In this document: positions 1,070 to 37,978 of the stretch, piece by piece
Layout: the number at the start of each line of letters is the position of its first letter
How positions within the stretch are numbered: position 1 is the stretch's first letter
NCBI RefSeq assembly: GCF_051622035.1
Contig: NC_135356.1
Location: 26,008,839-26,072,838, forward strand
Origin: Arctopsyche grandis
Taxonomy: Eukaryota; Arthropoda; Insecta; Trichoptera; Hydropsychidae
Direction of reading: 5' to 3'
DNA: 64,000 nt
Notes under the pieces: model-generated
What the model was told of the DNA's origin: nothing
The model's database searches: none
Seen by the model: only the letters and a program-made list of their open reading frames with translations
Program-made: the position numbers and the translations under genes

Positions 1070-1213
1070 TAGAGGTCGGAATCTGAAGGGGCCGGAAACG
1101 TGCTGCCTATTGTTCCATTGTTGTAAATCCTTTGTAAAAAAGGTTCGGCAAACCTTTAACAATGCATTTACAATCTTTGAACAATAAACAGCCCCTTCAG
1201 ATTCCGGGCTCTA
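1070..1213. mobile_element. hAT-like MITE, TAGAG family, copy 1
   Basis: The element runs from TAGAGGTCGG to CCGGGCTCTA and is flanked by a perfect 8-bp direct repeat GTCATTAG (1062-1069 and 1214-1221). The ends are inverted repeats sharing CGGAATCTGAAGGGGC. The interior is a long imperfect palindrome around the core GGCAAACCTTTAACAATGCA. An 8-bp duplication fitting nTnnnnAn, together with ends fitting YARNG, is the signature of the hAT superfamily. There is no coding capacity, so it is non-autonomous. It is the most symmetrical of eight related copies in the window. Confidence 0.85.
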
Positions 1214-1860
1214 GTCATTAGTGTTGAAAAACACCGTTTCTCAAGCTCGTATTCTTAATGAGAAGGGATAGGGATGTATCGTTAACATATAAAAATTGAA
1301 TATCAAATATTTCTTAGACATGTATGTACATACATATTATGATGACATCCAGAAATCCATGAAATACAGACCAGCTGAATTTGCGAGAGGAAGCTGATGC
1401 CGATTTCATAGGAACCATCACAATAATCAAACGCTAATAAGAGAAACGCCGATTTGGATTTAATAACACTGAGCAACAAAAAAAAAAATACCAGAGCGGA
1501 GACTAGCCAATCTTTACTAGGTTTGACTCACTGAATTCGAATATGATATTGATTTTTGTTGGTGGGTGATCGTTTACGAGATATGAGCGTTTAAAAAAAT
1601 GCGCGATTTTTGGCTTTTGCGGTCTTTAACTCAAAATTTAGGATTGTTACGCTCAAAGTTAGTATTGGAATCAATAGTCAGATATTTTTCCTATTAATTG
1701 TTATATTTCATTGCTTTAAAATACTTCTAATTAATTGTCTAGCGAATTTTTAAAGTCAAAAATATATTTTTTTTTACGGATTTTTTTCCCGTGCTATACT
1801 AACTAACTCGACCGGTTTTTGCGTAAGAAAGATTTTCGTTCAGTTCCCGTATGCGTATAA

Positions 1861-2838
1861 TGCTGCGTACGGACCAAACCAACGACGATTTTGGGCCAAC
1901 GTTTTAACCAGCAGGATAAAACCAGTAGCGTACAAAATATCGAAATAAAAATTAAATTTAAAAATTGAAATTAAATATCAAAATTAATACTATTATTATT
2001 ATATTAAAATTAAATTCAAATATCAAAATAAAACTATAATCAATATATTAAAATTAAAATAAAATATTGAAAGTTAAAACAGAACATGCCCAATTTAAAT
2101 AAATTTTCGAGATTGACCTAAAATTAGATTATCAACAATCACATACAGGTAATCCTCGACTTTTGTTTGTCAAAGATGTTTTGACTTACGAAGATACGAA
2201 CTAAGATCGAAAAAAAAATCAAAGAATTATTATTTTTACTTCCCCGTAATGCGCAGTTATTGAGAATATCTCATGGGTGACCGAGCAATCATCGCAATCC
2301 GGTGCGTAGTCGGTAGATCAATCGAAATTTTTTTAGTCTTCAATTGTTTCTCTCGTCGAAATAAATCAATTAATTAAATCATTTCAGAGGTAAAATTTAT
2401 CGGATAATGTCATCAATTGTTTCTCTCGTCGAAATAAATCAAATAATTAAATACATCTCAGAGGTAAAATTTATTGGATAATGCGTGATTATTAATTTTA
2501 TTTCGACGAAAGAAAAAAAAACCCTTTGACAAATCACCGACATTTTTTTGTTAAATATTTCATCGACGGCGAAACACAGTAGTATATCGTGACGACTTAT
2601 AAGAAACAATAACAAGGTTTTTTCACTCGTAATTATAATATTTCTCTGGTTGTAATGCGTATCGTCGTAATTCAAAACATTGTTGTGATTCAAAACATCA
2701 ACGATGATCTAATTTTAGCTCAATCTCGCTCTTTAGCTTAATTTTGATATTTAATTTAATTTTTTTTAACGATATTTTGTACGCTACTGGTTTTAAAAGT
2801 TGGCCCAAAATCCTCATAGGTTTGGTGCGTACGGACCA
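1861..2838. mobile_element. Long-TIR element L, copy A
   Basis: A 978-bp non-coding element whose ends are long inverted repeats. They read TGCTGCGTACGGACC, AAACCAACGACGATTTTGGG, GCCAACGTTTTAACC and onwards, mirrored at 2770-2838. It is flanked by TAA (1858-1860 and 2839-2841), a 3-bp duplication typical of PIF/Harbinger-type insertion. It sits inside the fold-back element, and joining its flanks restores the palindrome of the host. The interior is AT-rich with no recognisable protein. Two further copies lie at 35784-36948 and 38953-39885. Confidence 0.75.
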
Positions 2839-3038
2839 TAACAGAAACGTTTGTGCAAGCGAGATGGCAAGTCCGTCGCTTAAGCGCGTGTGGTGTCTCG
2901 TTTGCCGTCTCGCTTGCACAAACGCTTCTGTTATACGCATTCGGGAACTGAACGAAAATCTTTCTTACGCAAAAACCACTCGAGTTAGTGCGTTTAGATA
3001 AAAAAAAAACATTGGGATATAAAACCAATCCTTATAAT

Positions 3039-3140
3039 TAGAGGTAGGATAGTCACAGTGCTATCCATTGTTCGGCAAACCTTTAACAATGCATTTACAA
3101 CCTTTGAACAATACATGGCCCCCTCAGGCTCTGGTGACTA
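3039..3140. mobile_element. hAT-like MITE, TAGAG family, copy 2
   Basis: A 102-bp element from TAGAGGTAGGATAGTCAC to CTCTGGTGACTA, with flanking 8-bp repeats CTTATAAT (3031-3038) and CTTATAAA (3141-3148), seven of eight matching. It carries the family core GGCAAACCTTTAACAATGCA but lacks the left hairpin arm seen in copy 1. It is inserted in the right arm of the fold-back element. Confidence 0.85.
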
Positions 3141-3533
3141 CTTATAAACTTGGTGAAATAAAAAAATTGCCAAATAAATGAAAAATAGCACGGGAAAAAA
3201 TCCGTAAAAAAATATATATTTTTGACTTTTAAAATTCGCTAGACAATTAATTAGAAGTATTTTAAAGCAATGAAATATAACAATTAATAGGAAATATATC
3301 TGACTATTGATTCCAATACTAACTTTGAGCGTAACAATCCTAAATTTTGAGTTAAAGACCGCAAAAGCCAAAAAACTGTAAAAATGGCGCAATTTTTTAA
3401 ACGCTCATATCTCGTAAACGATCACCCACCAACAAAAATCAATATCATATTCGAATTCAGTGGGTCAAACTTAGTAAAGATTGGTTAGTCTCCGCTCTGG
3501 TAACTCAAAAACGTGATTTTTTGTTGCTCAGTG

Positions 3534-3850
3534 TAATCATCCAAATCTTGCCAGAAACGATAGAGATGCTCGTAGTCATTGAGCCAATCGAATAAAATTT
3601 TCTGATTCGGGCTGGGGTTCAAATCCACGACCTCTCTACTGGTAAACAATCGTTTAACGAGTGAGCTCTTTTAAATCATATTTATTTATAAACTAGTGGT
3701 GCTACCCGGCTTCGCTTGGTTAATACAAATTAAATAAAAACCATGAACAAATTAGCGACCGATCAATCCAGCCAATCAGAAACGACTTTGACGACAGCCA
3801 ATCAGAAATGAATTACAGACGCTTAAATTATTAATTATAAATTAATTGAT
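3534..3850. other. AT-rich, no gene; start of a TGCTACCCGGCTT repeat
   Basis: No gene is visible. The phrase TGCTACCCGGCTTCGCT at about 3700 recurs in diverged form near 13990 and 15365, so it marks a dispersed repeat end whose family I cannot name. Confidence 0.4.
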
Positions 3851-4614
3851 TAAAAAATTGAAAGAATATCCAAATTTTCTTAAAATAATATTTGCATATT
3901 ATATTTAGAAGAATTCGAAGAAAGCTCTATGAAAATTGCAAAACACTTAAATACAGCGGGGTACTATTCATCAATTATACATACTCAATTTTGATTGGGG
4001 TCAGGGTTGAAAACATCGGCACAATATTTACGTATTCGCATAATTTATCAAATCAAAAGATGTAGTAATACATGTACATATGTAGGGTCACCCCCATATA
4101 ATACGGTTGATTAGTTCTAACTTTTTTTCCGTTTTCTTGCAGAAAAGATCTACCGCACTATAGGACGGTTGACAGTAGCAAAAATTATACGCGGTATATT
4201 TCAAAATTATAACACGTATACAGTAAAAAATTGAAAGAATATCCAAATTTTCTTAAAATAATATTTGCGTATTATATTTAGAAGAATTTGAAGAAAGCTC
4301 CATGAAAATTGCAAACCACTTTAATACAGCGGGGTACTATTCATCAACTATACGTACTCAAATTTGATTGGGGTCAGGGTTGAAAACATCGGCACAATAT
4401 TTACGTATTCGCATTATTTATCGAATCATAAGATGTAGTAAAACATGTACATATGTATACATATGTAGGGTCACCCCCATATAACACGGTTGATTAGTTC
4501 TAACTTTTTTTTCCGTTTTCTTGCAGAAAAGATCTACCGCACTATAGGACGGTTGACAGTAACATAAATTATACGCGCTATATTAAATATAAAAATTATA
4601 ACACGTCTACAGTG
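3851..4614. repeat. Direct tandem duplication of about 373 bp
   Basis: Two adjacent copies (3851-4223 and 4224-4614) share the same order of words: ATTGAAAGAATATCCAAATT, a TACAGCGGGGTACTATTCATC block, GGGTCACCCCCATATAA, and GAAAAGATCTACCGCACTAT. The second copy has a small TACATATGTA expansion and scattered substitutions. Neither copy contains a recognisable coding region. Confidence 0.8.
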
Positions 4615-4820
4615 GATGGTATACCTTTAAAAATGAACGAAAACACACAGAAAAATGTCAATATTCTGATTAAACGTAAAAAGAGTCAGGAATCTTTATT
4701 GACTGTTTCGATTTTAATAAAATTTCAAACGCTCTGTGAAGTAACATTCCTTTTAATAAGACAAAAACACACTGGATGGTGTGGGACGTCATGTGTCCTT
4801 GGCTCCCCGCTGTGCACGTG

Positions 4821-4880
4821 CATTCCATATTTGAAGAAATGCACGACAAGTTTCTCCTACATTTCTTCAAATATGGGATG
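4821..4880. repeat. Perfect-stem hairpin, 21-bp arms
   Basis: CATTCCATATTTGAAGAAATG is mirrored by CATTTCTTCAAATATGGGATG across an 18-bp loop, one mismatch aside. The right half plus the following 50 bases is the inverted counterpart of 769-840. It is therefore more likely the joint of two inverted repeat copies than an RNA gene. Confidence 0.55.
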
Positions 4881-6402
<1,522 letters not shown>

Positions 6403-7641
6403 CGATTAAACCAATAATTAAAACGTTATTTTTTAACTAAGCATACATAAATGCGTACATAGCATGTTTGGAACGGTTATTTAAATGATGGGTTTTATTT
6501 ACAGCAAATTATCAGTTACTCTCGTGGGGACATTTTCACACACAAATGCTACATTTGTAAACAGAGACACTTGCCCCTTAACCCTCTTCTGCCAAATATA
6601 AATTCCATTATGAACATTTAAAAAAAAATCTTAAAACTCAAAAATTCTTAGCCGGTATTACATGCGAGATTGCGAATGTTTCAATGGGAAAAAAGTGTCA
6701 ATAATTACAACCGAAGAGATATTTAAAAAAGGACACTCTTGGTTGAACTTCGTTAAAAATTAGGATTTTCAACATTGACCAATATAGCTAAAACCATAGA
6801 AACGTTTTTGATATACAATAGATACTTATTAGGCAGAATTCAAAAAAATAAATTAAAATACGATTTGCAGACAATGAACTTATGATAGTGACTATGGTGA
6901 TTTCAATCTGGAAGTACAAACATGTCAAACTATGAAGTCAAGCGACTACTCTTCATTGTTTGAATTCTTATAATAAAATCATTCCCAATCCGCGGATAAA
7001 GGCTTCTCTTCAACAACATGTCGTTTCTCTCTATTAGCAACAAACAATCACCATCCACGATTCATTTCGTGTCCATTCTTACACCCCTTTATACACTCTA
7101 TATAGTATTATTAGAACAGTACCTTTCGCATATTTTTTTACAAACATCCGTTTAGCTTCACTTACGATAACAATTATTCTGAAAAAAAAATTGCCTCTTA
7201 TTGTTCCGTTGCTTTCACTCGCTATACTATGTCAACCATTCCCCCCAGTCATATATAATTCATATTCATGTTTCTCCGAGTACATTGCACTTTATGCAAC
7301 AGTTTGATTTCCAAGTTTCGAATACATACATCGTGAATAACTAAAGTGGATGATTTCCTCCTCTCAACCCCCACCGAGTGTATTAATAGTACCACTTATT
7401 CTAAAGGAGACCTTTTCAAGCCAAGCATAATAAGAATACCTCAAAATGTTCGAAATACTACCCTTTTGAATAAAAAAAAATATATATATTTTAGAAAGCA
7501 GGGGACCTTCTACCGAGAATTCAAAATATTTAGAGGTGATGCGATTTTAATTACCGGCACTGTAGGTATATACATACATATTTATTTACAATTTAGGAAA
7601 GCTACAGGGGATATGGGTGGATGAAATTAGAAAAAATTGTT
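6403..7641. other. AT-rich, no gene recognised
   Basis: Only an orphan 92-codon open frame at 7346-7624 stands out. It begins without an ATG and shows no family resemblance that I can name. Confidence 0.4.
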
Positions 7642-7649
7642 GTGATGAG

Positions 7650-7788
7650 TAGAGGTCGGAATCTGAAGGGGCCGGAAACTTGCCGCCTATTGTTCAATTG
7701 TTGTAAATGCTTTGTAAAAAAGGTTCGGCAAACCTTTAACAATGCATTTACAATCTTTGAACAATAAACAGCCCCTTCAGATTCCGAC
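7650..7788. mobile_element. hAT-like MITE, TAGAG family, copy 3
   Basis: It starts TAGAGGTCGGAATCTGAAGG and ends CAGATTCCGAC, closely matching copy 1 including the palindromic core. The left flank GTGATGAG (7642-7649) is partly repeated on the right as ATGAG. The last few bases of the right terminus are missing, so the right end is eroded. Confidence 0.8.
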
Positions 7789-8178
7789 ATGAGATGGATG
7801 AGTTGTCCAAAACAGAGACGAATGGAAGCGTGTCATGGAAACTTTCACCCAGCAGCGTATGGCGAGTGGTTGTAAGTGATGATGATGACGAATACGCAAT
7901 TGTTCAATAAGTTAATATTTGAACTAATTTGTTAAAATTGAAATGTCGTATTCAAAAATAGTTTTCCTTATGTTGCATATGAAAGTAATTTATTTTATCA
8001 ATCTATAGCGTAATTATTACTAAAATGGCCAGAGAATGCTTGTGTAATTATAAATCGCAAAAGGGATTTTTTACCATAAACATACATATACATATAAATC
8101 ATTCAAAATATTTCTATTTGGAAAAGTTATATGTATAAATATCGCATCGCTACTGTAATTTCTTGCCATACTAATAAT

Positions 8179-8311
8179 TAAAGAGCGGACCCAGAGCGTG
8201 CTGTTCATTGTTCACATGTTGTAAATGCATTGTTAAAGGTTTGACGAACCTTTTTTACAAAGCATTTACAATAATGGAACAATAGACGGCGCGCTTCCAG
8301 TCCTACCTATA
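8179..8311. mobile_element. hAT-like MITE, TAGAG family, copy 4 (variant ends)
   Basis: The element is bounded by a perfect 8-bp repeat CTAATAAT (8171-8178, 8312-8319) with ends TAAAGAGCGGACC and GGTCC-like TCCTACCTATA. It carries the same internal palindrome (TTGTAAATGCATTGTTAAAG and its mirror) but different outer 25 bp from copies 1-3. Confidence 0.8.
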
Positions 8312-8747
8312 CTAATAATAAATGAGAAACATTTTAAATGCGTAATGGACTAGTTACTATAATAGATCCATAATGTATTGTTAACATACACTGGCGGTCA
8401 CATAAACTGCATTACTTTGAATTTTACGATTTTCGGGTCGTAAAATCTCTACCCTATTCTAGGTTCGAATTTTTATTTAGGGTTTTGTTTAAATAGACCC
8501 TTCTCGATATTTTTAACTCATTTTCAAGTGTGATTTCGAAGTGGAAGCAGCGTTATTCTTAATCTAAAAAATAGTAAACTAAAAAAATGTCAAAACACCA
8601 TGAAACAACTCGGAAAACGAAGTGAAAATTTTAACTTTTTCGAAATGTGGACTTTCAACAAGAGACATTTCAAGTCAGTTAGGATATCAACAATTTCAAG
8701 AATACTGAAGAAATAATGAGAAACTGGGAGGGTTTGTATAATAATAT

Positions 8748-9130
8748 TGTTACGTACGCCGTGGATTGAGCGAATTGTACTTAGACCAACGGATATCTGT
8801 AATCGGTTAACTAAATGCATGCACTTACTTCCAAAGATTATATCTGGACTCTAAGTGCATTTAGGCTTAACAATGACCGTTATTAGTTATTTCTCAGAAT
8901 CGGTACGGGAAGACCCAATGTCTTGGAAATACATATCCGAATACGTGACTATACAACAGGTAAACAGATTAGGCGTCCTGAGAGATCTACCCTTTATAAG
9001 GCGGTACGTAGGCGATATAATTCATTCTGGACTTAGCAGTGACACTGCATGTATCTCCTGAATCATCAATAAATGCTGTGAAACGACTGTTGGCCTTTTA
9101 CTTTGATCCTCCACCCACCCCTACGTAACA
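8748..9130. mobile_element. Solo LTR, 383 bp, Ty3/Gypsy-like
   Basis: The segment begins TGTTACGTAC and ends CTACGTAACA, giving the canonical TG...CA with a short terminal inverted repeat. It is flanked by a 4-bp duplication ATAT (8744-8747, 9131-9134). A CATCAATAAATGC polyadenylation-like signal lies near the 3' end (about 9063-9076). It interrupts the Tc1 relic. The family assignment rests on LTR form and duplication length only. Confidence 0.75.
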
Positions 9131-9159
9131 ATATAAATGTAATTTTTGTATAAATAATG

Positions 9160-9560
9160 AGGGAGGGAGCGTAAAGGCACCGGACTGACTCGGAAGATAA
9201 ATTCACGGGAAGATCGATTGCTGACACGCCAATTTATTCAAAATCTTTTCAAAACTGCTTTAGATTTAAGAAGAGATATTTTAGAAGATTTTTCAATTAA
9301 TATTAGTGTGGAAACTGTGCGGAGACGATTGAGAGAAGGTGACTTTTACGCTCGGAGACCTGCAAAAAAAACCATTTCTCTCAAATAAAATGAAGGAGAC
9401 ACGTCTTCAATGGGCCAAAACTTATGAAAACTGGACAGTTTTGTATTGGCAGAAATTGATACTCTCGGATGAGTCCAAGTTCAACCTCTTTGGATCGGAT
9501 GGGTTACATTATGTTCGACGCAAAAGTGAAGAATGACACAAAGCACCCTGACATCCGAAT
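9160..9560 (+). pseudogene. Tc1-like transposase fragment
   Basis: Translation across frames gives the second helix-turn-helix region (GKINSREDRLL, then INISVETVRRRLREGDFYAR). The catalytic-core start follows (KETRLQWAKTYENWTVLYWQ, then LILSDESKFNLFGSDGLHYV). The SDESKFNLFGSDG block contains the first aspartate of the DDE triad and is diagnostic of Tc1. A frame change near 9385 and the absence of the second D and the final acidic residue mark it as dead. Confidence 0.8.
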
Positions 9561-9863
9561 GGTTTGGAGAACTTTTTCTTAAAAATGGTTTTGTGAATTC
9601 TATTGATAACTGGCTTACCTCGATAAATACTAGTTCGAGCTTTTAACTCGCAATTTTACCACTTTAAAATTCAGCACACTTCCAATTAACCCTTTTAAAT
9701 GAAAACAGAAAATAGTGTGGCCAGAACACTATCCCAATAAACATCTTTCAATAGAAAATACTCTATATAAAATAGTATTAGTATTAAAAAAAAAAGGTTA
9801 ACAATAGAAATTGACAAAAGGATCCCGTTTCGGCTCATTCGTCCGCCGAAGACTGCTTATAAC

Positions 9864-9966
9864 TAGACTCCGGACCCAAAAGCGCGCCGTTTATTGTTCA
9901 ATTTTTGTAAATGCATTGTTAAAGGTTTGCCGAACAATGGATAGCATTGTGACTATCCTACCTCTA
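9864..9966. mobile_element. hAT-like MITE, TAGAG family, copy 5 (hybrid ends)
   Basis: Flanked by CTTATAAC (9856-9863) and TTTATAAC (9967-9974). Its left end (TAGACTCCGGACCCAAAAGC) is of the copy 4/6 type, while its right end is the reverse complement of the left end of copies 2, 7 and 8 (CTATCCTACCTCTA). It is therefore a hybrid of two sub-families joined at the common core. Confidence 0.8.
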
Positions 9967-9988
9967 TTTATAACTTATAAATTATATG

Positions 9989-10141
9989 TAGAGCGCGAAT
10001 AGAGAGCGTGCTTTTTCCAGGAATCGGGGCGGTTTGGCCCTATTTACGAAGCTAGAGTGCAACAAAAAAGGTCCGGCAAACCTTTTACAAAGCATTTACA
10101 ACAATTGAACAACGAACGGCACGCTTTGGGTCCGCACTCTA
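9989..10141. mobile_element. hAT-like MITE, TAGAG family, copy 6
   Basis: It starts TAGAGCGCGAATAGAGAGCG and ends GGGTCCGCACTCTA. The flanks ATTATATG and GTTATAAG match at six of eight positions. The left half carries unrelated filler (about 10015-10055) in place of the first core arm. It lies only 23 bp from copy 5. Confidence 0.65.
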
Positions 10142-10149
10142 GTTATAAG

Positions 10150-10888
10150 TATGTAGTATTTAAATTATGTATGAGAGAAATAAATTTACGTGTATCAAAA
10201 AACAAAAATTTTACCCATTGCTATTTTATCAATATGTAATGACTAAATAAACAACTAATTAACATTCCATTCTAATATGACTTTAGCTTAAGTCTCGACG
10301 TGATATAAATAGATAGTTACCTATATAATCATCAAAAGGATCATCATTTACCAAGGTGATCATAAAAAATCAACCCTCCTCAGAAGACATTTGCAGTGGC
10401 ATCGATTAAATCACACCTGTAAAGTTTCATGACGTTTGGCGAATTATTTGAAATGAAATTGATAAAAATCATATAAAAAAATGAAATATTTAAAAAGAAA
10501 ACATACAATATGGCTGATTTTACTACCAACCTACTCGTGGATACTTATGTAACATTTTTTTAAATAATATATTTTCTTGTTTTCATTTGTTTTTTTCAGT
10601 AATATTTAAAGATTGTTCTGTTGTTTTTTTTATAGACTTTTCAAGATTGGAAATGCGTTCTTCTATGCAGTTTCAATCATGGACAGAAATACTTTACCTG
10701 TTAATGAGAAGGTCAGCTAAGGATGAACTGAGCAATGGCGTGAAGCCTCATGTTGGAATTGAATATGTTCATCATACCAGCTGAATCTTCAGAAATGTTC
10801 GTGGTCCGCAGTTTCAAAGCCCCTGGTCTAGGCGACGGCCACCAGACCTATTCGCAATTTCAAGGTCGAATGGCATGCATCATAAATA

Positions 10889-10921
<33 letters not shown>

Positions 10922-11060
10922 CAATGCACACATGTCGCCAGCACACACACGCGCGCGCGCACAATCTGTAAAACACATGACCAAGAGACCTACATACATC
11001 CATCTAACCTCAAAAGGTAAACATTGCCAAGAGACGTGCATGTGTGAACGCACATTAGGG
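10150..11060. other. AT-rich, one possible terminal exon on + strand
   Basis: At 10636 a polypyrimidine run and TTTTTATAG precede an open stretch to about 10785, in a more codon-like composition than its surroundings. None of the three frames gives a protein I recognise, so it is at most a candidate last exon. A (CA)n array with an adjacent CG-rich run follows at 10887-10965. Confidence 0.25.
10887..10921. repeat. (CA)n microsatellite
   Basis: About 35 bases of CA repeat, followed at 10945-10963 by alternating CA/CG. It is responsible for several spurious His/Thr open frames. Confidence 0.9.
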
Positions 11061-11420
11061 AATTCGAACTCCGGAAGTACGCGACGTCACGGAACGGACA
11101 CCGTTCAGTCCCAATGCGCGTGACGTCAGAGCGCGGGGCCGCCGGGGGGGCGCGCCGCGGCGTCCATTTTCGGATAGGCAATGAACGCGGGGGGGCTTCG
11201 GTGGGGGGCTCGGGGAGTACTTACCGTGGGGGCGCGCTGCTACTGCGGGGGGCGGAGGCGCGGGCGCGGGGCGCTGCATGGCGCCCCGATGCGGCTCGCG
11301 CGGCCCCCGATCTGGGTCTGTAGGCCACCCGGCCGAGTCGAGCGCGTTCCCGTGCTCGCCGCTGACATTGAACGCGAAACTGTGGCCGGCAGCGACATCG
11401 CTCGACCCATATACGAGACG
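11060..11420. promoter_or_regulatory. GC-rich CpG island, promoter-like
   Basis: An abrupt change from AT-rich DNA to about 350 bp of very GC-rich, CpG-dense sequence. At its left edge lies CCGGAAGT (11071-11078), the ETS/GABP core. It is followed by GACGTCAC (11083-11090) and a perfect CRE palindrome TGACGTCA (11121-11128). A YY1-like AAAATGGACGCC is present on the minus strand (about 11159-11170). This combination is typical of ubiquitously active animal promoters. The transcription direction is not certain: a minus-strand splice donor sits inside the island. Confidence 0.6.
11225..11279 (-). CDS. Possible first coding exon, unknown gene
   Basis: On the minus strand an ATG at 11279 opens a Pro/Ala-rich frame (MQRPAPAPPPPAVAARPH). 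It runs 55 nt to a consensus donor CACG/GTAAGT (donor at 11224-11219). The exon lies inside the CpG island, where a first exon is expected. Low-complexity protein gives no family assignment and no downstream exon could be found. The call rests on ATG, donor and context only. Confidence 0.3.
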
Positions 11421-12259: not shown

Positions 12260-12361
12260 TAGAGGTAGGATAGTCACAGTGCTATCCATTGTTCGGCAAA
12301 CCTTTAACAATGCATTTACAACCTTTGAACAATACACGGCCCCCTCAGGCTCCGGTGACTA
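12260..12361. mobile_element. hAT-like MITE, TAGAG family, copy 7
   Basis: 102 bp from TAGAGGTAGGATAGTCAC to GCTCCGGTGACTA with a perfect 8-bp duplication CTCATGAT (12252-12259, 12362-12369). It is almost identical to copies 2 and 8, indicating recent spread of this short sub-family. Confidence 0.9.
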
Positions 12362-24241: not shown

Positions 24242-24448
24242 GTCAAGAACATGCATCTTTATGCATTATCATGGAATCGTAAAAATTACCTGGAGACACA
24301 CTTTTTCAATACTGATTCATTCTGTAAGTTTCATTGTTGCATAAACGTGTTGCATTTCAATTTATGTTTTTTTTTTATCATAAAAGCATCAGAAGAAAAT
24401 TTATTAAGTGGATTTATTCTAGAAGTTTTATTGCATGTAGTAATTATT

Positions 24449-25177
24449 CATGACAAATTAACCCATGCACTAAACCAAACTGGGATAAATGCAAAGGATA
24501 TCGCCCTTTTGAAGAACCTATATTGGAACCAATCTACTGTTGTGAAGGTTGAAGACTTGGAAACCGAAAAAGTAGAAATTAGTCGAGGGGTACGGCAGGG
24601 ATGTGTATTGTCACCCATGCTCTTCAATCTGTATTCGGAAATGGTGTTCAACCAGACAGTCGATAGTCGAATAGGAGTAAAAATAGACGGCGAAATTATA
24701 AATAATATCCGTTTCGCTGATGATACGGCAATATTGACTGAGAGTGCCGAAGACCTGCAATCGTTATTGATCGCAATTGATCATTCATGTCAAAAATGGG
24801 GTCTGTCTATTAATATCAACAAGACAAAATCAATGGTCATATGTAAAGAAAAGACGGATCCATTAAACCTGAGTGTGCGCGGACAAATGATTGAACAGGT
24901 CGAACAATACGAATACCTAGGAGCAATGATCAATACGGACGTCAGTTCCGAAATGGAGATAAGAAGAAGGATCGAAATAGCAAGAAATGCCTTCGGCAGC
25001 ATGAAAAATGTTTTGTGTTGTCGAAAGTTTTCTATGAAATTGCGCTTAAGAGTCCTGCACTCCTATGTTTGGTCGGTGTTGCTGTACGGATGCGAAACGT
25101 GGACACTGTTAGTGGCATCCATGAACAGGATAGAGTCCTTTGAAATGTGGTGTTACCGGAGGATGCACGGGCCATAA
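24449..25177 (+). pseudogene. RTE-like reverse transcriptase, C-terminal half
   Basis: The open frame reads KVEISRGVRQGCVLSPMLFN, then IRFADDTAIL, the catalytic FADD box of reverse transcriptase. WGLSININKTKS, YEYLGAMI and SVLLYGCETWT follow, in the order found in RTE/BovB-type elements. The protein lacks the endonuclease and the first RT blocks and stops soon after the RRM motif at 25177. The upstream part of the same open frame (24251-24448) belongs to the host sequence, not the element. Confidence 0.85.
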
Positions 25178-27094: not shown

Positions 27095-28250
27095 TTAAAA
27101 ATCCGTTGCTACTGACGGTGCTACGGCAACGACACCGAGGCTTTCTGGCATGCTTAAAACAAGCTATACTGAATGTATTAATTGTTCATTATGATCTTAT
27201 TGAACGCTTATATAGCTCACTAGATTATGTCATTAGAGCAGTAAATAAAATCAAAAGGAATGCCATAAATGAGAGATTATTTTTCACAAACTCAGATGTA
27301 TCTATTCCAGGACAGGGGCAATTTATTGAAATATCCAAAAATGAGGAACTAAAACCAGTGTTTGAACGAGGATCCCACAAATTCTTATTACAAAAACACT
27401 GTACATACAGAAATCTAGTAAAATAATAAAAATAATAAAAGGATACAGAAATCTGCTCATAAAAATGACATATATATGTAAATTTACATAGCTTATATGA
27501 CTAACTTATTTGCCAAATTTAACAAAACCAATTTGAAGCTGTAAGGTTATCAATGAAACTCAATAAAAGCTATAAGTAAAATATAATATCTGCCTTTGTT
27601 GGCAAAATTTTTCTATACAAACAACACTTGTATAGAAGAATGTTCTCCGTCTTCAAATTTTATAAAATTGCGAAAAAGAGATGAAGATTTGCAGAAGCTG
27701 TTGATTGGTTTCCCGTCTTCCTATTTAGTATAATGTGGATTTGGAGCAGTTATGAACCTCATCACTCATGAAACTAATATAAACCTTGTGAAAAAAGAAA
27801 CCCACTGGAAATAAGTGCTCGTGGAGACTAAGTAAGAATGTTACACACAAACATAGAGTCAAACATAAATAATCTCTTATCATACCATCAGGTTCACCCA
27901 TCTCATTGAAAAAAAATGTGTTTTTGTGTTTTAAAATAATTTAATAAAAATAATTACAATTTCAACAAATATTACTTTGAATAACAATTTTTTTGTTAAT
28001 ATGTTATTTTATTTTGTGATAATTAAATTTTTTTATTTTGTGATAATTAAATAATAAAAATTACAATTTCAACAAATATTACTTTGAATAAATTTTTTTT
28101 GTTAATATCACCATTTTCCATTCAAGACATAAAAATCTATTTTATAATTTGTATATTATGCTGTTATGTATAGTTATTTCACTTGAGTGTTCGTGGTCAG
28201 GTTTAGGCTTAAATAAGAGGTCCATGGCCATAAAAGTTTGAGAACTACCG
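27095..28250 (+). pseudogene. Decayed hAT transposase (ZBED/SCAND3-like), copy 1
   Basis: Fragments in different frames: VATDGA (27103-27120), RHRGFLACLKQAILNVL, ERLYSSLDYVIRAVNKIKRN (27106-27426). After a gap come IGFPSSYLV and CGFGAVMNLIT (about 27697-27780), ending near 27909. These match the RHxGFL and C-terminal dimerisation regions of ZBED-type hAT transposases. AAAGTTTGAGAACTACCG at about 28230-28248 resembles a hAT terminal repeat. Frameshifts and internal deletions make it non-functional. A shorter copy lies at 49225-49840. Confidence 0.7.
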
Positions 28251-28736
28251 AGATGGACTAAGCTTCCTGCAAGATAAAAGTGAACATTCTCCATATTTTA
28301 ATGTCAAAGTAAGTCGCCAATTTTATTGCCCAGTAATTTTAATAATATTTGAATGCCCCCCCACACCCACCCACTTGACTATTATCTGGATCCGCTAATG
28401 CATTTGGAATTGAAGGAGTTCGTGTGAAAAGGAACGTCGTGTGTGTTCCTACTTACATACATACATTGTACGAGTTGAAAAGCGTTGGGTCGAGATTGGA
28501 GCTTTATCAACAGTCAACAATAAAACTTATTGTTGCAAAGCAATTGCAAAAATTGCAAATATACTCATATGTAAATAAGGTGTTGAATTTCTGCGAGCGA
28601 TGGTCTGGATGGCGTGAAAAATGTGCAATTTTTTAATTCGCAACTAAAACTGCACACGCTGCAGACGCCATACATTATCGTCTTACAATTCTTTACAAAT
28701 AAAATGATTCATTTTGCTTAGTCGAAGATTACTCGT

Positions 28737-28762
28737 ACTAACAGCTCGTACGAGCTGTTAGT
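28737..28762. repeat. Perfect 26-bp palindrome at a deletion joint
   Basis: ACTAACAGCTCGT is followed immediately by its exact reverse complement. Copy 2 (about 50296-50730) has roughly 400 extra bases here and only the right half of the palindrome, so the palindrome marks where copy 1 lost sequence. Confidence 0.85.
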
Positions 28763-29145
28763 GTTCAATCTGTTTGCCTTTTTGATCAGCTCAATACCAT
28801 CGGTGAACATGTTTGGGTTGATATTCGCCTAAATAATTTTTCTCTTTTAATATGCGTTTTATATTTTCCTCCCAGTGAATCACCTCATATAATTAGTTAA
28901 TTTTTTTCAAACTTGCAAAAGAACTTAAGGTTTTTGGCTGGCGGGAGGGTTAATTCTAGGAGTTTGAGTAATGAATTAATTTTTATTCCCGAATTATTAA
29001 ATATGTATTTGTGTATATATTTGCAAATGTGTGTACGTGTATGTATATTTTTGTGTATATGTAATTATTATTGGCCAGGAAGGCCCATGGGGTTTACCTG
29101 CTAGACCTTCCTGGTATAAATATATAAATAAATAAATAAATTTCG
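28763..29145 (+). mobile_element. R1-like retrotransposon remnants and 3' tail, copy 1
   Basis: 28763-28905 encodes the end of an R1-type endonuclease piece (SVCLFDQLNTIGEHVWVDIR, LLICVLYFPPSES). 29073-29145 is a separate 3' tail with a GGCCAGGAAGGCC...GGCCTTCCTGG-type stem and a (TAAA)n end. The same tail appears at 51038-51110 and, inverted, at 42004-42082. The two parts are probably from different elements. Confidence 0.6.
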
Positions 29146-29180
29146 ATAATCGTTGATAAATGATTTTGTTTTTCGGTAAG

Positions 29181-30006
29181 TGGATGCACACTTCACGAAA
29201 TTAACTGTTGCATATTGGACATCGACGAGATTCGCCTGAACCAAGCTATGGATCTATCGAATATTATGGGGATGTTGACACCTTTAGAAAGTTTAGAGCA
29301 AAAAGCGATGGATTTTATTATTGATAATTTTGGGATTGTGAGTAGTGTCGATTGTAAAAAATAGTATTATTTCTTAATTAACAATAAATAATTTATATTT
29401 ACACATATTTCAGTTGTACAAAACGCCAGAGTTCTGTCGTTTACCGGATTCTCTCGTATTGAAAATTTTGAGATCAGATCGATTAAATGTGTCTTCCGAA
29501 GAAGAAGTCTTCCATGCTGTGAGACTTTGGATCACTTTTGACGAAAATAATCGTAAAGAAAAATTAATAGATATGCTAAGCTCAGTGAGACTAACATTGT
29601 TGTCCTTGGAGGTAAATAATTTTGTGTTTCCCTATCACTGACGTATTTTTCTATCACTCGATAATAATGTTATATAAATTTATAATATTATTATTACATG
29701 ATTTTTATTATTATATAACATTATAGAATATTAATTTTTATTTTCAGTTTTTCCTCCTTGAAGTTGTGGAATTATGCGAGCCATTCGAAGAATGTATGAT
29801 CAACCTCAATCAAGCTGTTTATGAAATGATGATACCCAATCATCTCAGCAAACCCAAATATCGCATGGGGAGAGCAAAACTGGCAGTCATTGGTGACTCT
29901 GAACTCACAGACGTGAGTATGGTGTATAAATGCTATACCCTATTTGACTTACCATCAGCAATTGGAAAACTCTAGACTTCATCTTCTAAACTCTAGAAGA
30001 TTCATA

Positions 30007-30081
<75 letters not shown>

Positions 30082-31570
30082 TATATAAATTTTGGGTAAC
30101 ATTTTGCTGATGAATAAGAATCGTATATTTTCCTTCTGACTGCCAAGTTAACTGAAATGAGTATAAATTTAAATTGAATATGTACATGTTTTTAGGCGTC
30201 CAGTACTATCGATATCTACGATGGAGTCAGAAATACGTGGACCCAATCAAAAAAACTAAATATCGACCGTGCGAGGTTCGGTTCAGTCGTTGTTAACGAT
30301 TGGATATTAATCATCGGTGGATGCAGACCGATAAGAATATGTGAAGCGATAATCGGGGTACCTCTTAGCGAAGTATGATTCAATTTATTTTTAAACGTGT
30401 TGTAAATTGGACCCTAATAACTAATGTGCAAATTAGTAATTACCAAATTACTGATGTGATGTAGTTCACCAATATTTTGATCTACATGTAACAAATTTTT
30501 AGATAGGTATAATTAATTACGTTACATCTAGTTGACTAGCTATAAGTTAGAGTTTGATATCCTATAACAAAATCCAAGTGGCGGAATACTATTCACATGT
30601 AGATCAAATCAATTATTTATTTTATAAACTAATATTGTAGAAATATATACCTACATAATATAGATAGAAATACATATTTATAGTATAATCGAAATAATTT
30701 ATCTTTATCGTTTGTAGGTAATATATATAGATTTAAAGGATGGCCAGATTCACGAATTGAAATCATTAAATGGACCACGATTCAACTTTCAAGTGGCAAC
30801 AATTTCAGACGATTCATCTACTGACGTGTACGTCATCGGCGGTTTTAGTGATTATAAAACTGCATTGACGACAGTGGAGAGGTAAAATCTAAAACTTTAA
30901 CTGTTATAAAATAGTAATCCCTATCTAAAATCAAATCTCTGAACAGGTGGAACAGCGAGAAGCAGATCTGGAAAAAAAATATCGCTCGTATGCTCACGAT
31001 AAGTATTCATCCCGGTGTATCCGTCATCAACGATAATATATATCTGACAGGTGGCTTAAGAACTATCAACTTAAAGATTTATTGCACCGACCTAGTACAA
31101 ATGTACTCACCAAAAAACAATAAATGGATATATTGCACGCCCATGATCCAGAAAAGAGCAAATCACTCGGTAAATGGAAACTAGAATTTAAGCTTGTTTC
31201 GCTGTCAGTTTATGGTTTTTGGCGATTTCGAATTCCATAAGTCGTACTTAGTTGATAGATATTAAATTAAATTGAAGACTCCCAATCAGCTGCTTGGTTT
31301 GAAAGTCCTATAGACTAGTAAAATTTGAATCATTCATGGAAATGTTAATATAAGGCATAAGTGGTATTTCGTTGATAAATATTAAATTAAATTGAAGACC
31401 TCCAATCAGCCAGTTGGGTAGAAAGACATTTCAGACATATAGTCCCTATAATATCAGATGATAGTGACCATATAAATTACTTGAATCATTCATGGAGTTG
31501 TGAATATAAGGCCAGATTCTGATTATATTCTCATCAAATGTCTTAAACTGACAGTAAACACAGTCAGCAT

Positions 31571-31651
<81 letters not shown>

Positions 31652-33463
31652 TCAATACTTATAATTTATCGTTTTTAGAGCGTGACAATCAATGGGAAGT
31701 TATACGTCGGCGGTGGCTTTTGCAGCATCATCGGTAATCAAATACGTCATCTCATAAGTATGGAATCATTCGATCCTGTAGCCAACGTGTGGACTAGTTT
31801 TTCTGAGTTGCCGAGTGCGAGATCAGGAGCCGCACTTATTTTCTCTCAAAACAAACTGTTTCTCATAGGTGAGATTTTGTATATAGTATTACAGCAAATT
31901 TTTTCATAAAGGGTTTTAGAGGAGTCATAATTGATCCTTTTATCATGTGTTTCTTCTATACCATAAAATATCTAGATATTTCTGGATACTTTTTTTTATA
32001 AATAATACTCGACTCATCATTCCTTTTGTGGGCAATAAATGAATAAATGAACATTCAAATTCCAGTATCGTACTGAGCTCCAAAAACACTACAAATCAAC
32101 TTGAATTAATCTTTTCTAAACAATAATATTATGATAATACAAAAACATCCAATAAAAAATACAAATGCAAAAATTGCAAATAAAAATATAAAATATAAAA
32201 CATGGTTACAAACATTTTTCCACACATCTTTAAATATGCAATTTTTTCAACCACAAGTTCTTTTACACTGTACATTGTCATCTCGATGTTTCTCCAAGCC
32301 ACACATCCCTTAATTACTTCCCATATCTTTTCAATTGGATTGAGTTCCAGCTGAAATGGGGGTGACCTTAGAGTCTATAACATACTTTTTCTGTCGACAT
32401 TTATGCTCCAATACTAATTTATAAAGCTCTGCGGGTCAAAATAAATATTTTTTTATGTCAACCACTGCTTTATAATATCTTTTTAGGAATCTAGGGTCAA
32501 AAATAAGATCCATTATCTATCACCCACAACAGAATTCGGTACCAAATTTGGAATCAACTTTTCGGTTATCCATTTCTTATAATTGTCGAAGTTCATTTCA
32601 TGGTGATAATCTCCGGTTCTTTGATGACAGGAATTTGGAACAAAGCCTCGTTCTGTACCGGCGTTTACAATTATAAATCCTGCTCCTTTGGATGCCGCAT
32701 TTACATATAATGCCACTTTCCGAAGAATCTCTCCACGTCATTGACTTGTGTTGTGTGTTGAATGTATATACATATGTTTCATCGGTATACACGATTGGTC
32801 TACCTTCTGCTCTAAATCGAGCTATTGATCTTAAAAATGTGATTCTTTTATATACATTGCACATTTTCTCTTGTAACAATTTTCTGTCATCGGACATTTT
32901 TTTTCTGTCTGGACTGTGAAGAGTAGTGCGCTTGCCCGTAAACCCTATGGATTGTTTCATTTTTTCCAATATCCCAGAACGCATTTATTATTTATAATTT
33001 CGAGAAAATCTCGGGAACTTTGTAACCACCGTCACTGTCAAGCCACGCGTCTACCAAGAAGCAAAAAAGGCGTGGATTCGTATCGGCAGACTAACGATAT
33101 CTGTACACCCGGGCACGCACACTGTCTCAATTTTCTTCTCTCGTTGAACGAACTCTACATGTGGCCATTTTCAACACTACAGATATGAATTCCAGAGAAT
33201 GAAATTAAATCGACAACTCTTATTTTACGTTTTTATTCATAATTACTCAAAAGTGCTATACTTTCTACCTTATACTATCTCTTTCTTCAATTTTTAATTT
33301 AATCTTAATTGTTTTAGGGGGAACAGTTGCACAAAAATCTTTAGACGATGTCTGTGAGTATGATCCGAGATGTGAAGAATGGATAGCCCGTAAAAGTCTC
33401 AGCATTCCAAGGACCGGAGTGCAAGCATTAATATTGCCATACGACGTTATAGATTTTCAATAA
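29181..33463 (+). CDS. BACK-kelch repeat protein, copy 1 (5' end missing)
   Basis: Exons: 29181-29337 (start approximate), 29414-29611, 29748-29912, 30196-30372, 30718-30881, 30947-31169, 31679-31868, 33318-33463, all with GT-AG introns and compatible phases, ending in TAA at 33461. Exons 1-2 encode a BACK domain (LSNIMGMLTPLESLEQKA, then VSSEEEVFHAVRLWITFD). Exons 3-8 encode about six kelch repeats (IIGG, VYVIGGFSD, IYLTGG, LYVGGG, LFLIGG). Such proteins are usually Cullin-3 ubiquitin-ligase adaptors, but the BTB domain needed to bind Cullin-3 is absent: R1 debris lies where it should be. The remaining frame is open. The last intron holds a dead DDE transposase, and introns carry TA arrays. 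Truncated gene or distant 5' exon cannot be told apart here. Confidence 0.85.
30008..30077. repeat. (TA)n in kelch copy 1 intron 3
   Basis: Pure TA array of about 70 bp within the intron. The paralogous array is at 51976-52047. Confidence 0.95.
31579..31648. repeat. (TA)n in kelch copy 1 intron 6
   Basis: About 70 bp of TA. The paralogous array at 53552-53712 is more than twice as long. Confidence 0.95.
32510..33045 (-). pseudogene. DDE transposase fragment (Tc1/mariner superfamily), in kelch intron 7
   Basis: On the minus strand, frames at 32984-32598 and 32716-32513 together give RFRAEGRPIVYTDETYVY, then GAGFIIVNAGTERGFVPNS, GDYHHEMNFDNYKKW and LIPNLVPNSVV. The order YTDETYV, IIVxAG, GDYHxxMN, W.xEKLIPNLPPNSV is that of a DDE transposase group common in insects. 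The sequence breaks where the second catalytic Asp (VIDNA) should be, and a frameshift lies near 32700. It is present in both gene copies, so it predates the duplication. Confidence 0.75.
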
Positions 33464-34370
33464 TATTTTTGTAACAAAGTATACAATACAGTAAGAAACT
33501 TAGAATATGCTATCCAAGTCTATAAGCTAATTGCCCTTCACATTTTAAATCTAAGTTCTGAGTGTATTAGTATTATAACATTAAAGCGTTTGGATAATTT
33601 TAATAAAATAAAGAATGTATGACCGAAAAATGTAGAAAGTAATAATGCGATTTTTGAACGTAAGCGGTGAGGACGGATGAGTATTATGAATGTATTACGT
33701 AATATTATGCTAAGCATATTTAACATAACAGAATACATATTTTGTTTCTAACATTCCAAAGTAAGGCCCATCCAAGATAAGACCCTCCCAAGAAATTTTT
33801 CTGTAGAATGATTGGTCCATCTTCTTTTAAATAAACACAGCTTAAGATTTTTGATCCACGGGACTACTGATGCCACCGTAAAAGTTAACATACATTTATG
33901 ATTCCATATTTACCATTAAGTTTTTAGTCATAATGTTTCATATTGATATGATTCAATGACATCTTCACTCTTATTATATTGATGTTGTTATTCTTATTTA
34001 ATATTTGCTTGCTATTGTATTCAAGTGAGTGTTACATGCAATAAGCAATTTAAAAAAATTAAGACTTTATAGGTAAGACCTATACAAGGTGATGTTATTT
34101 TGTAAAATCTTTAAACTATCGAAATAAAAATACTTTTCTTGAATTAATGAGTTTTATTTAAAATTTGATTATAACAAGATATGTATCTCTACTGCGGTGA
34201 CTAGCTACATTTAGGATGTTCATAATAAAGCTGACCGGAAAAGTCTATATTAGGTCGTAGCGAAAGACACGAATTTTGGATTTTCATCGATGGAACTAGT
34301 GGAAAACGTGCATCGTATCAAGAAAACGTAAAATCAAAATTTTCATTGTTTATTTTTGATAAAGTAGGTA
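33464..34370. other. Kelch 3' flank, AT-rich
   Basis: Probable 3' untranslated region and downstream sequence. AAATAAAAATAC at about 34120-34131 could serve as polyadenylation signal. It is conserved in copy 2 (55536-56430). No other gene is seen. Confidence 0.5.
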
Positions 34371-34683
34371 CCACGAGCCTATAAACGTCAAACGTAAACT
34401 GTCACTTTGACATTTCTGCACTAATATACTCGTAATATCCACAAATCCGACCACTATTTTTTTGACATTATAAATAGACAATCAACATTGTTTGCAATAA
34501 TTTGATCATTTTTAGTATGGATATTTGTTTAATTGAAAATGTGGCGGCTCTACGGTATGTTCGAGGATAATTGGATTATTAGTCACATTGCGATGGTCAC
34601 AAAGACAATTTTTGCTATGAAAACCGCGAATGCGGAATATTTGGCACTCGAGTTTTCGTTAATATGATAGTTATCGTTAGTAT

Positions 34684-34841
34684 TGTGGCGGATCGCTATA
34701 CGACATGGTCGAGTTTGGTCACCTTCCTGCGAGTGGGGACCAATTCGGCTGTGTTCAGAGTAGCTACCTCACTCTGCCTTCAGCCGTCATAAATAAAGCA
34801 CGTGCATCAATATGTCAGTCGTCTCATTCGTTCATCCCCCA
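34684..34841 (+). mobile_element. Short LTR, 158 bp, sibling of 36602-36761
   Basis: It starts TGTGGCGGATCGCTATACGA and ends TTCATCCCCCA. It shares CGACATGGTCGAGTTTGG, CCTTCCTGCGAGTGGGGACC, the ATAAATAAAGCACGTGCAT polyadenylation region and AGTCGTCTCATTCGTTCATC with the solo LTR at 36602. No target duplication is visible here; the right side runs directly into a GC-rich repeat. Confidence 0.55.
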
Positions 34842-34849
34842 TAACTGGT

Positions 34850-35770
34850 GAACGATAGCTGCAGGGGCTGTAATGTGTGTATGTGTATGTATGGGTGACC
34901 AGTGGCTGTGTGTGTGTGTGTGTGTCGTAGTCTCGTTCAGCTCGCTCTGGAGCACGTGCTGGAACAGGGCGGGGTGGGGAATTAGACACGTCAGGTTGAT
35001 TATATCCTCGTGAACGATAGCTGCAGGGGCTGTATATATGCGTGTGTATGTGTGGATGACCATTGGCTGTGTATGTGTCGTCGTCTCGATCAGCTTGCTC
35101 TGGAACGGTGTGGGGTGGGGGAATTATACAAAAGAGTAATGGTTATGATCTCGTTTTTATTGATGAGTTGATGGCCGAGCCGGGGAGTTGCTCGACGCCT
35201 CTGCCCCTTTATGGCGGAGGCTGTGGATCGAGTAGGCTGTGGCTGGTCAGGAAGGGTAGACCAGCCACGCCAAGACCTTCTCGGTCGGCGTCTCACGAGC
35301 GTCTGAGAGCTCGCCGGGTTCGAGGCTTGGGTCGAACACGTGGTCGAGCATAGTCGGTGAGGCATGACTATGGAAGAAGCCATACTCCTCGGAGGGCTTC
35401 TATGATGCCAATGAGCGCTCGCCGTGATCAGACTTGGGCGGATCACGTGGCCAGCCTGCCTTAGTTCGAGGCCGGCTTTTACGTGGGACGCTGCATCTGG
35501 CGGTCCGCGCCGGGATCACTGGGTGCCGGACCCACGGGAGAATCTAGAGCGACTGACAGATGGTCGGTGTAAAAAGAGAGAAAACAAAAGCCGAAGCCGT
35601 AAGAGGACAACCAACGGCCATGAGGGTTTTTGGCTCGGACACCTCGTTTATTAAGGAGTAGATGGCGAGCCGGGGAGTTTCTCGGCGCCTGTGCCCCTTT
35701 ATGGCGGGGGCTGCAGATTGAATACGCTGGCTGGTCAGGCAGGGTAGACCAGCCACGCCAAGACTTTCTC
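34850..35770. repeat. GC-rich repeat with internal tandem modules
   Basis: A module beginning GAACGATAGCTGCAGGGGCT with a GTGTGT run occurs twice in tandem (34850-35008 and 35009-35150). The rest to 35640 is the inverted counterpart of 21793-22400. From 35655 a further partial copy (GATGGCGAGCCGGGGAGTTT to CCAGCCACGCCAAGAC) repeats the 35170-35280 part. Open frames here are by-products of the GC content. Confidence 0.65.
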
Positions 35771-35783
35771 ATCGGAAACATTT

Positions 35784-36948
35784 AACCAACGACGATTTTG
35801 GGCCAACTTTTAAAACCAGTAGCGTACAAAATATCGAAATAAAAATTAAATTAAAAAATTGAAATTAAATATCAAAATTAAGCTAAAGAGCGAGATGGAG
35901 CTAAAATTAGATCATCGTTGATGTTTTGAATTACAACAATGTTTTGAATTACGACGATACGCATTACAACCAGAGAAATATTATAATTTCTCTGATTACC
36001 AGCGAAAAAAACCTTGTTGCTATTTCTTATTAAAAGTCGTCACGATATACTACTGTGTTTCCGCCGTCGATGAAACATTTAACAAAAAAAATGTCGGTGA
36101 TTTGTCAAAGGGTTTTTTTTTCTTTCGTCGAAATAAAATTAATAATCACACATTATCCGATTAATTTTACTTCTGAGATGGATTTAATTATTTGATTTAT
36201 TTCGACGAGAGAAACAATTGAAGACATTATCCGATAAATTTTACCTCTGAAATGATTTAATTAATTGATTTATTTCAACGAGAGAAACAATTGAAGACTA
36301 AAAAAAATTCGATTGATCTACCGACAACGCACCGGATTGCGACCATCGCTCGGTCACCCATACTAATACATGAGATATTCTCAGTAACTGCGCATTACGG
36401 GGAAGTAAAAATAATAATTCTTTGATTTTTTTTCGATCTTAGTGCGTATCTTCGTAAGTCAAAACATCTTCGACAAACAAAAGTCGAGGATTACCTGTGT
36501 GTGATTGTTGATGATCTAATTTTAGGTCAATCTCGAAACTTTATTTAAATTGGACATGTTCTGTTTTAACTTTCAATATTTTATTTTAATTTTAATATAT
36601 TTGTGGCGGCTCGCTTATACGACATGGTCGAGTTTGGTTGCCTTCCTGCGAGTGGGGACCAACCCGGCTGGGTTCGGAGAGCCGCTACTCACTCTGTCTT
36701 CAGCTGTCATATAATAAACACGTGCATTAACATGCCAGTCGTCTCATTCGTTCATCCTCCATATATTGATTATAATTTTATTTTGATATTTGAATTTAAT
36801 TTTAATGTAATAATAATAGTTTTAATTTTGATATTTAATATCAATTTTTAAATTTAATTTTTATTTCGATATTTTGTACGCTACTGGTTTTATCCTTCTG
36901 CTTAAAACTTTGGCCCAAAATCGTCGTTGGTTTGGTCCGCACGCAGCA
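35784..36948. mobile_element. Long-TIR element L, copy B, interrupted by a solo LTR
   Basis: The left end starts within the terminal repeat (AACCAACGACGATTTTGGGC) and the right end reads GTTGGTTTGGTCCGCACGCA. The interior matches copies A and C in inverted order. The outermost left bases are lost where it meets the GC-rich repeat, and no TAA pair is seen. A 160-bp LTR sits inside at 36602-36761. Confidence 0.7.
36602..36761 (+). mobile_element. Solo LTR, 160 bp, inside element L copy B
   Basis: TGTGGCGGCTCGC...CATCCTCCA (TG...CA) flanked by TATATT on both sides (36596-36601, 36762-36767). The uninterrupted host sequence in element L copy A (about 2040-2050, inverted) has a single TATATT, confirming the insertion. 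A CATATAATAAACACGTGC polyadenylation region is present. The LTR is unusually short. Confidence 0.8.
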
Positions 36949-37298
36949 TCAGAGAGACACAACAACTCGTTACCGCGTCTCGAACACATCCAACTCACGA
37001 ACACGCGTTGGATGCGTTCGTGAACGTTCGGGAACCCTTTCTCGTGGGACAAAAAACGGGAAACACAATAACGCACGAAATCAACGCGCGAAACGCACAC
37101 ACTCATATTTCGACTCACACACACGCATCACACATCGGTGCTCGCGGCCGCACACGATGCGAGTGAAGAGCCCGCGTAACTTTACGTTTAAAATGATCAT
37201 AAAACGAAAAATGACGCCTTTTGAACTAAGCATCTTTTTAAATTCAAATTATAAAAATAAAAATATTGTTATGGGGACTGGCTAGAGTTGTGATGTAT
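36949..37298. other. No gene; CpG-rich patch then repeat shared with 57680-57810
   Basis: 36950-37170 is moderately GC-rich with CACGAACACGCG/CGTTCGTG words. From about 37178 (TACGTTTAAAATGATCATAA) the sequence matches 57686-57810 almost exactly up to the MITE insertion point. Confidence 0.5.
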
Positions 37299-37306
37299 CT
37301 CATAAC

Positions 37307-37408
37307 TAGAGGTAGGATAGTCACAGTGCTATCCATTGTTCGGCAAACCTTTAACAATGCATTTACAACCTTTGAACAATACACGGCCCCCTCAGGCTCC
37401 GGTGACTA
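37307..37408. mobile_element. hAT-like MITE, TAGAG family, copy 8 (with empty site)
   Basis: 102 bp, near-identical to copies 2 and 7, with perfect duplication CTCATAAC (37299-37306, 37409-37416). The paralogous sequence at 57799-57806 reads GTATCTCATAACCAGCCACC without the insert. This proves mobility, the element boundaries and the 8-bp duplication together. Confidence 0.95.
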
Positions 37409-37978
37409 CTCATAACAAGCCACCACGTTGTTTTGAGACAGATTCATCTGGGGGGATCTGACGTGTCCAGTAGTGGAAATACGGTTGTATGTTTGAATAA
37501 ATTGTAGGCGAGGGTATGGATGTTGACCGTATCTCGGCCGAACGAAACACGGCTGTGGTTTGTTGAAATAAATTGTTTTATTATAGTTTTGGGTATACAA
37601 GTGTATAAATGGTTATGTTGATGAAGCTGTTATGTTATGGAAGTTTCTCGAAGTGACTGGAATCGACTAAGCCAATTTAAGAGGTCAAGGAATTTGAGCC
37701 TTAAAGCCCTCAACATGAGGCCCCCCATCGAACAGTCTAAGAGACCCTTTCGTCGGAGAACGAGACGGTTGTTCATGAATATCGCACAAGAACAACCGCA
37801 CATCACTGTTCTAATAAAAAAATCACACTGTACATAACCAAGTACAAAATAAACAACAACGCATGAACACATAAAGCGCGCATGCGTAAAGAAAAAATAC
37901 CTAAAATGTGCCGTGCGAAAGCACGCACACCTCAAGTAAAAATACATGTATGTATGTATGTTTATGCGGGCTTAAGCA

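Follow-up and report, generated by a model that had tools for sequence, protein, structure and literature searches.

How can a family of short mobile elements hold one inner sequence in common while its outer ends differ from copy to copy? The question is raised by a 64,000-nucleotide stretch of the trichopteran Arctopsyche grandis (contig NC_135356.1, positions 26,008,839 to 26,072,838 of the forward strand; hereafter the window), in which a preliminary description had reported eight short elements with a common core. All eight are present where they had been placed: the core has 8 matches at ≤3 mismatches in the window (mean 0.00 over 100 shuffles), and its mirror motif has 10 (shuffle mean 0.04). 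The eight are real members of a mosaic, non-autonomous family of hAT-like miniature inverted-repeat transposable elements (MITEs). We consider it probable that these MITEs keep a fixed geometry, that mosaics form among them through copying jumps, and that successful mosaics were amplified as subfamilies.

Class and subfamilies of the elements

In the genome searched (475.7 Mb, 189 contigs), the core 20-mer has 4,774 exact copies, compared with 0 for a reversed control. Our core sample of 100 copies combined 94 of 100 listed places, every one of them on contig C1, with 6 exact copies from the window. Target duplications agreeing at 6 or more of 8 positions delimited 88 of these copies (72 at 8/8, 11 at 7/8, and 5 at 6/8), and 12 were not delimited. 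Arm statistics rest on 81 copies, after removal of the 12 undelimited copies, the 5 with 6/8 duplications, and 2 of the remaining 83 that had been mis-delimited. The flanks of copies L104 and L105 are identical in the letters read, so these two are probably one duplicated insertion, although both are counted in the totals of 88, 83, and 81; the permutation test below merges identical rows.

Named by hand, the subfamilies are T1 (102 bp), T2 to T5 (133 bp), and T6 (144 bp), with the rest left as a mixed group. T1 has the most copies, and its 26 copies average 1.2% off their consensus outside the core, with 10 of the 26 identical to it; one T1 64-mer has 963 exact copies in the genome. T1 therefore looks young. 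Its left arm equals that of T2 minus 31 bp between GTTC repeats, and its right arm, compared by eye, has T2 sequence outside and inside with a T4-like patch in the middle. Window copy 6 led us to a related family, F2, whose left arm (GTGCTTTTTCCAGGAATC) has 892 exact copies and is joined in copy 6 to a core-type right arm. From 43 F2 matches, we kept the 25 with an automatically recognised duplication of at least 7/8, and several of the 18 left out look complete by eye.

The 72 fully matching 8-bp duplications uphold the assignment to hAT-like MITEs, and the elements are short (mostly 102, 133, or 144 bp), homogeneous, and numerous, with inverted termini and without a transposase gene. The target pattern nTnnnnAn proposed from the window copies was also found in 71 of 83 sampled genome copies, and it matches the target motif of hAT elements of the Ac group. 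The sample extends it to nTnATnAn: positions 2, 4, 5, and 7 conform in 74, 80, 81, and 78 of 83 copies, with A and T being the bases at positions 4 and 5. The claim that the ends fit YARNG held in part: 139 of 212 sampled termini conform, but among T right ends the figure falls to 31 of 81, and TAGTC and TAGAC are frequent termini.

Exchange of end segments

We evaluated the exchange of segments among copies with a permutation test on the 133-bp class, which provides 32 of the 81 copies and 31 distinct ones once identical rows are merged. The site compatibility value was 0.325, compared with a permutation mean of 0.509 (sd 0.043) at window size 3. Compatible sites therefore cluster along the element, and none of 5,000 permutations matched this at window sizes 3, 5, or 8. 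A single 23-bp end (TAGAGGTAGGACCGGAAGCGTGC) stands, letter for letter, before the F2 inner region 163 times, before the core arm 229 times, and before a third inner region 8 times, with 0 matches for reversed controls of these combinations. Moreover, two ends of composite build (a newer end outside what remains of an older one) occur in 259 and 70 exact copies, so they have multiplied as units. The left end of window copy 1 is composite as well, with an outer GGAATCTGAAGGGG block ahead of a CCGGAAACGTGC remnant.

These results bear on purely clonal divergence, in which unconstrained ends evolve quickly and their combinations reflect common descent and chance. Five module combinations account for 49 of the 81 copies, so linkage within subfamilies is strong, as clonal divergence would have it. 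However, the permutation test and the occurrence of one exact end before three different inner regions disfavour that explanation, and the composite ends with their older remnants also speak against it, leaving it quite unlikely in our judgement. The permutation test, the one end on three inner regions, and the table of modules instead agree with the modular ends first described in the window, and exchange of end segments among copies is supported. Such exchange is rare, yet some of its products succeed. Core and ends, which had been expected to group differently, do group alike within the common subfamilies but are reshuffled between them.

The process we infer is template switching or gene conversion. 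The preliminary description had placed template switching at the palindrome, and some apparent breakpoints (located by eye) do fall there. Others are placed at GGA and CCGGAA and close to ATTGTTC, which leaves palindrome switching as at most one part of the process.

Arm frame, palindrome, and proposed mechanism

Read from the terminus inward, arms mostly follow the frame TA-N6-GGA-N17-ATTGTTC and then continue as TTGTAAATGC. The ATTGTTC block (≤1 mismatch) starts 28 bp in for 66 of 81 T left arms, 78 of 81 T right arms, and 16 of 25 F2 right arms; in seven T left arms the distance is 39 bp, which is what the composite end of T6 would give. TA and GGA are near-invariant, and positions 3-8 and 12-28 are variable. 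This comparison was limited to arms with ATTGTTC at positions 29-35 (≤1 mismatch), so the apparent invariance of that block is partly due to the selection of rows. A scan of 314,529 bases of sampled DNA, enriched for the MITE family by design, returned 189 matches to the frame and 0 to its reversed control. The ends had been described as at least three unrelated types. Their sequences do differ by type, but most arms fit one spaced frame, of which the ends are variants; they are therefore not unrelated. That T and F2 ends are built on one frame is, we note, also what common descent in a clonal family predicts.

Could each end type instead have its own hAT transposase, with end swapping passing the core from enzyme to enzyme? 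The terminal five bases do differ by type (TAGAG, TAAAG, TAGTC, TAGAC), and hAT loci are plentiful in this genome, with 150 scored C-terminal matches among 2,335 first-look candidates. Yet every end type with 4 or more copies has much the same target motif (the weakest being F2 TAAAG, with 5 of 8 at position 5), and this favours a single type of transposase. The inner spacing is also common to the types, and many elements that carry two end types still have matching target duplications. We therefore regard several transposases as unlikely.

The core itself is the inner part of one arm. A core that was a separate element inserted into different MITEs would explain why the same sequence lies between different outer sequences, but the arm that the core prolongs has its ATTGTTC block a constant number of bases from the terminus, and because of that constant spacing we rejected this explanation as very improbable. 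In addition, the core in F2 forms the inner portion of the right arm, and no duplication was seen by eye at the core borders. Constancy of the core relative to exchanged ends, as first described, was found in T left arms, where the inner region is less variable (0.23 vs. 0.29-0.39 at the ends), but not in F2 right arms, which were not selected by the core (0.34 vs. 0.29-0.48). Core constancy is thus partly a matter of ascertainment, since copies were collected by the core.

Among the F2 copies examined, the core-type arm, if present, is on the right only, and some copies have another inner region there. The palindrome is therefore not common to all relatives, and it looks like an inverted copy of that one arm. 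T left arms carry TTGTAAATGCTTTGT, which they have in common with F2 right arms, followed by AAAAAAGGTTC, which is found in the tails of F2 left arms. The simplest reading is that T arose from an F2-like element in which most of the left arm was replaced by an inverted copy of the right arm. The T core state ATTGTT is present in F2 copies L143, L170, L172, and L154, and the T core state GGCAAACC in L160 and L154, which supports the direction from F2 to T.

Under the mechanism that we favour, these non-autonomous elements would depend for their movement on a single type of hAT transposase from another source. At each end it would read a signal made up of the terminal TA, GGA at positions 9-11, and ATTGTTC at 29-35, and the sequence between these blocks would tolerate change. 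During repair or replication, copying would jump at short common blocks to another copy, or it may jump to the opposite arm of the same element. The resulting mosaics would join a new outer end to an older inner one, contain a patch in the middle, or have an arm copied inverted across the element, the last of which would account for the palindromic core. Rare mosaics that kept the geometry would stay mobile and amplify as new subfamilies. We put forward more tentatively, as a possibility we slightly doubt, the broader view that the family is a recombining population, with TA-N6-GGA-N17-ATTGTTC as the docking geometry for one hAT-type transposase and with swapped end cassettes, including arms copied inverted, repeatedly founding amplifying subfamilies.

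Several results weigh against this mechanism. Common descent, rather than a role as contact sites, could account for GGA and ATTGTTC, and ATTGTTC is not at its usual 28 bp in 9 of 25 F2 right arms. The permutation test weakens under a stricter filter that requires each site state at least 3 times, where 4, 2, and 147 of 5,000 permutations match. The direction from F2 to T is not proven. Similarity between the two arms of the same T element is not clearly raised at positions 12-28 (736 of 5,000 shuffles reach it) and at 3-8 the rise is weak (38 of 5,000), so copying from arm to arm does not appear to be a general, ongoing process; in F2, own-arm similarity is raised at 3-8 (141 of 5,000) and at 12-20 (4 of 5,000). 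Finally, no transposase with these ends was found at 90 of the 150 scored hAT loci, made up of 30 loci plus 60 that were read downstream only (20 over 2 kb and 40 over 1.3 kb).

Six of those 60 loci (L122, L130, L184, L198, L204, and L212) contain matches to the arm models, each of them two-armed, although the second arm in L212 is weak (E 0.0074). The genome also holds abundant, near-identical hAT copies (L010-L037 and others) with a 628-aa open frame and TAGGCTTGGGCATAG ends. This family was rejected as the partner because its ends are unrelated to the MITE arms and the core is absent at ≤4 mismatches from 30 of 30 of its loci. Isolated arms yielded no partner either: the exact F2 left-arm 20-mer followed by non-A bases has 0 genome matches, and 7 of 7 sampled copies of the 20-mer run into an A-run. 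An isolated right arm has 34 genome matches, and of the 12 read, 10 are two-armed MITEs or internal deletions. The other two, L220 and L223, are solo right arms, and no reading frame stays open across the 424-434 bases that precede them. The window has a hAT-type open reading frame (ORF) of its own (Table 1), and the frame scan gave no match near it. The autonomous partner may have died out, or it may still be present.

Window features and known systems

The eight copies and other features of the window are listed in Table 1. The claim that copy 5 carries ends of two types was borne out, and its arrangement (64 bases) has a single occurrence in the genome, the one in the window.

Table 1. MITE copies and other features, in window coordinates
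Feature	Positions	Strand	Description	Target duplication
Copy 1	1070..1213	+	Subfamily T6, 144 bp	GTCATTAG, 8/8
Copy 2	3039..3140	+	Subfamily T1, 102 bp	CTTATAAT/CTTATAAA, 7/8
Copy 3	7650..7787 (right end approximate)	+	Subfamily T6; right terminus lost	None recognised
Copy 4	8179..8311 (end at 8311 placed by eye)	-	T5-like, 133 bp; core with 1 mismatch	CTAATAAT, 8/8 by eye
Copy 5	9864..9966	-	Chimera: T1/T2-type left end, TAGACTCCGGACCCAAAAGCGCG right end	7/8
Copy 6	9989..10141	+	F2-type, 153 bp; core with 2 mismatches	6/8
Copy 7	12260..12361	+	Subfamily T1, 102 bp	CTCATGAT, 8/8
Copy 8	37307..37408	+	Subfamily T1, 102 bp	CTCATAAC, 8/8
Element or composite	1489-3502		Long inverted arms (183 nt, 98%; 123 nt, 96%; 67 nt, 91% complementary); copy 2 inside	
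Tandem duplication	3851-4584		Direct; two 234-nt copies, 95% alike, spacing ~373-384	
Remnant	~8390-9800		Resembles Tc1/mariner-like element (by eye)	
Insert in remnant	~8757-9130		TGTTACGTA...TACGTAACA ends; breaks the Tc1/mariner-like remnant (by eye)	
Reverse transcriptase fragment	24251-25177	+	PF00078, E 1.7e-19	
hAT-type ORF	44890-45291	-	133 aa; hAT C-terminal domain PF05699, E 5.8e-08	
Retroelement-type ORF	60427-62400	+	DUF1759, E 1.2e-27	

The outer bases of the element or composite that encloses copy 2 are CACTGAGCAACAAAAAA; in L106 and L153 these bases were also noticed, by eye, next to MITEs. From the Tc1/mariner-like remnant, a peptide of 48 residues translated by eye had no Pfam match. 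An Rfam search of the window gave 0 matches, and the window starts with CCTAA-rich sequence, a weak pointer to an insect. Elsewhere in the genome, a T5-like MITE has the same flanks at six places (L219, L224, L225, L226, L229, and L230), where it rides inside another repeat. Three exact T1 matches lie head to tail, 129 bp apart (G000:C1 40322160, 40322289, and 40322418), and are possibly a tandem array of the kind seen in the coral elements called CMITEs (PMC2872659).

In the parts of the literature available to us, the closest precedents are these CMITEs and the chimeric Galileo elements, neither of which is hAT. As described in the sections consulted, the CMITEs of Acropora (PMC2872659) are ~100-bp MITEs whose inner region is more conserved between families than their terminal inverted repeats (TIRs). 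Like the present family, they include elements with left and right ends of different families and one case of one family's ends around an inner region like another's; they also form tandem arrays, as T1 copies here possibly do. By contrast, they are piggyBac-type elements with TTAA duplications and CCYT ends, rather than 8-bp duplications and TA ends, and are far less numerous, at an estimated ~1,600 copies; those sections make no mention of a frame of blocks at fixed spacing. Galileo, in the portions used here of the reports on Drosophila mojavensis (PMC3573991) and D. willistoni (PMC4168063), resembles our family in its exchange between subfamilies, its chimeric copies, and the extension of TIRs by inverted recruitment, for which its authors weigh ectopic recombination, conversion, gap repair, and template switching. 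It differs in belonging to the P superfamily and in its long TIRs, and 12 two-TIR chimeras in D. mojavensis lack matching target duplications (PMC3573991), compared with the 72 of 88 at 8/8 here. For a hAT model of conserved inner blocks beside tolerant sequence, we turn to Herves, whose transposase, according to the passages drawn on here (PMC3143072), recognises a short subterminal motif at each of the two ends and does not handle these ends alike. The Herves motif, CG/AATTCAT, is a different one, and the present family is without a known transposase.

Within the part of the open-licence literature covered, we found no hAT MITEs described as having end cassettes at fixed spacing, and two 18-mers from the core do not occur in that literature.

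Ends are the usual basis for sorting MITE families. Where ends are exchangeable between fixed blocks, as here, such sorting would split one family into several. This genome, with its numerous near-identical copies and intact target duplications, offers a natural experiment on two questions: which positions in the ends are needed by a hAT transposase, and how frequently segments pass between dispersed repeats. For the family itself, new spreading versions can arise by the mixing of ends while the conserved signals keep their fixed layout.

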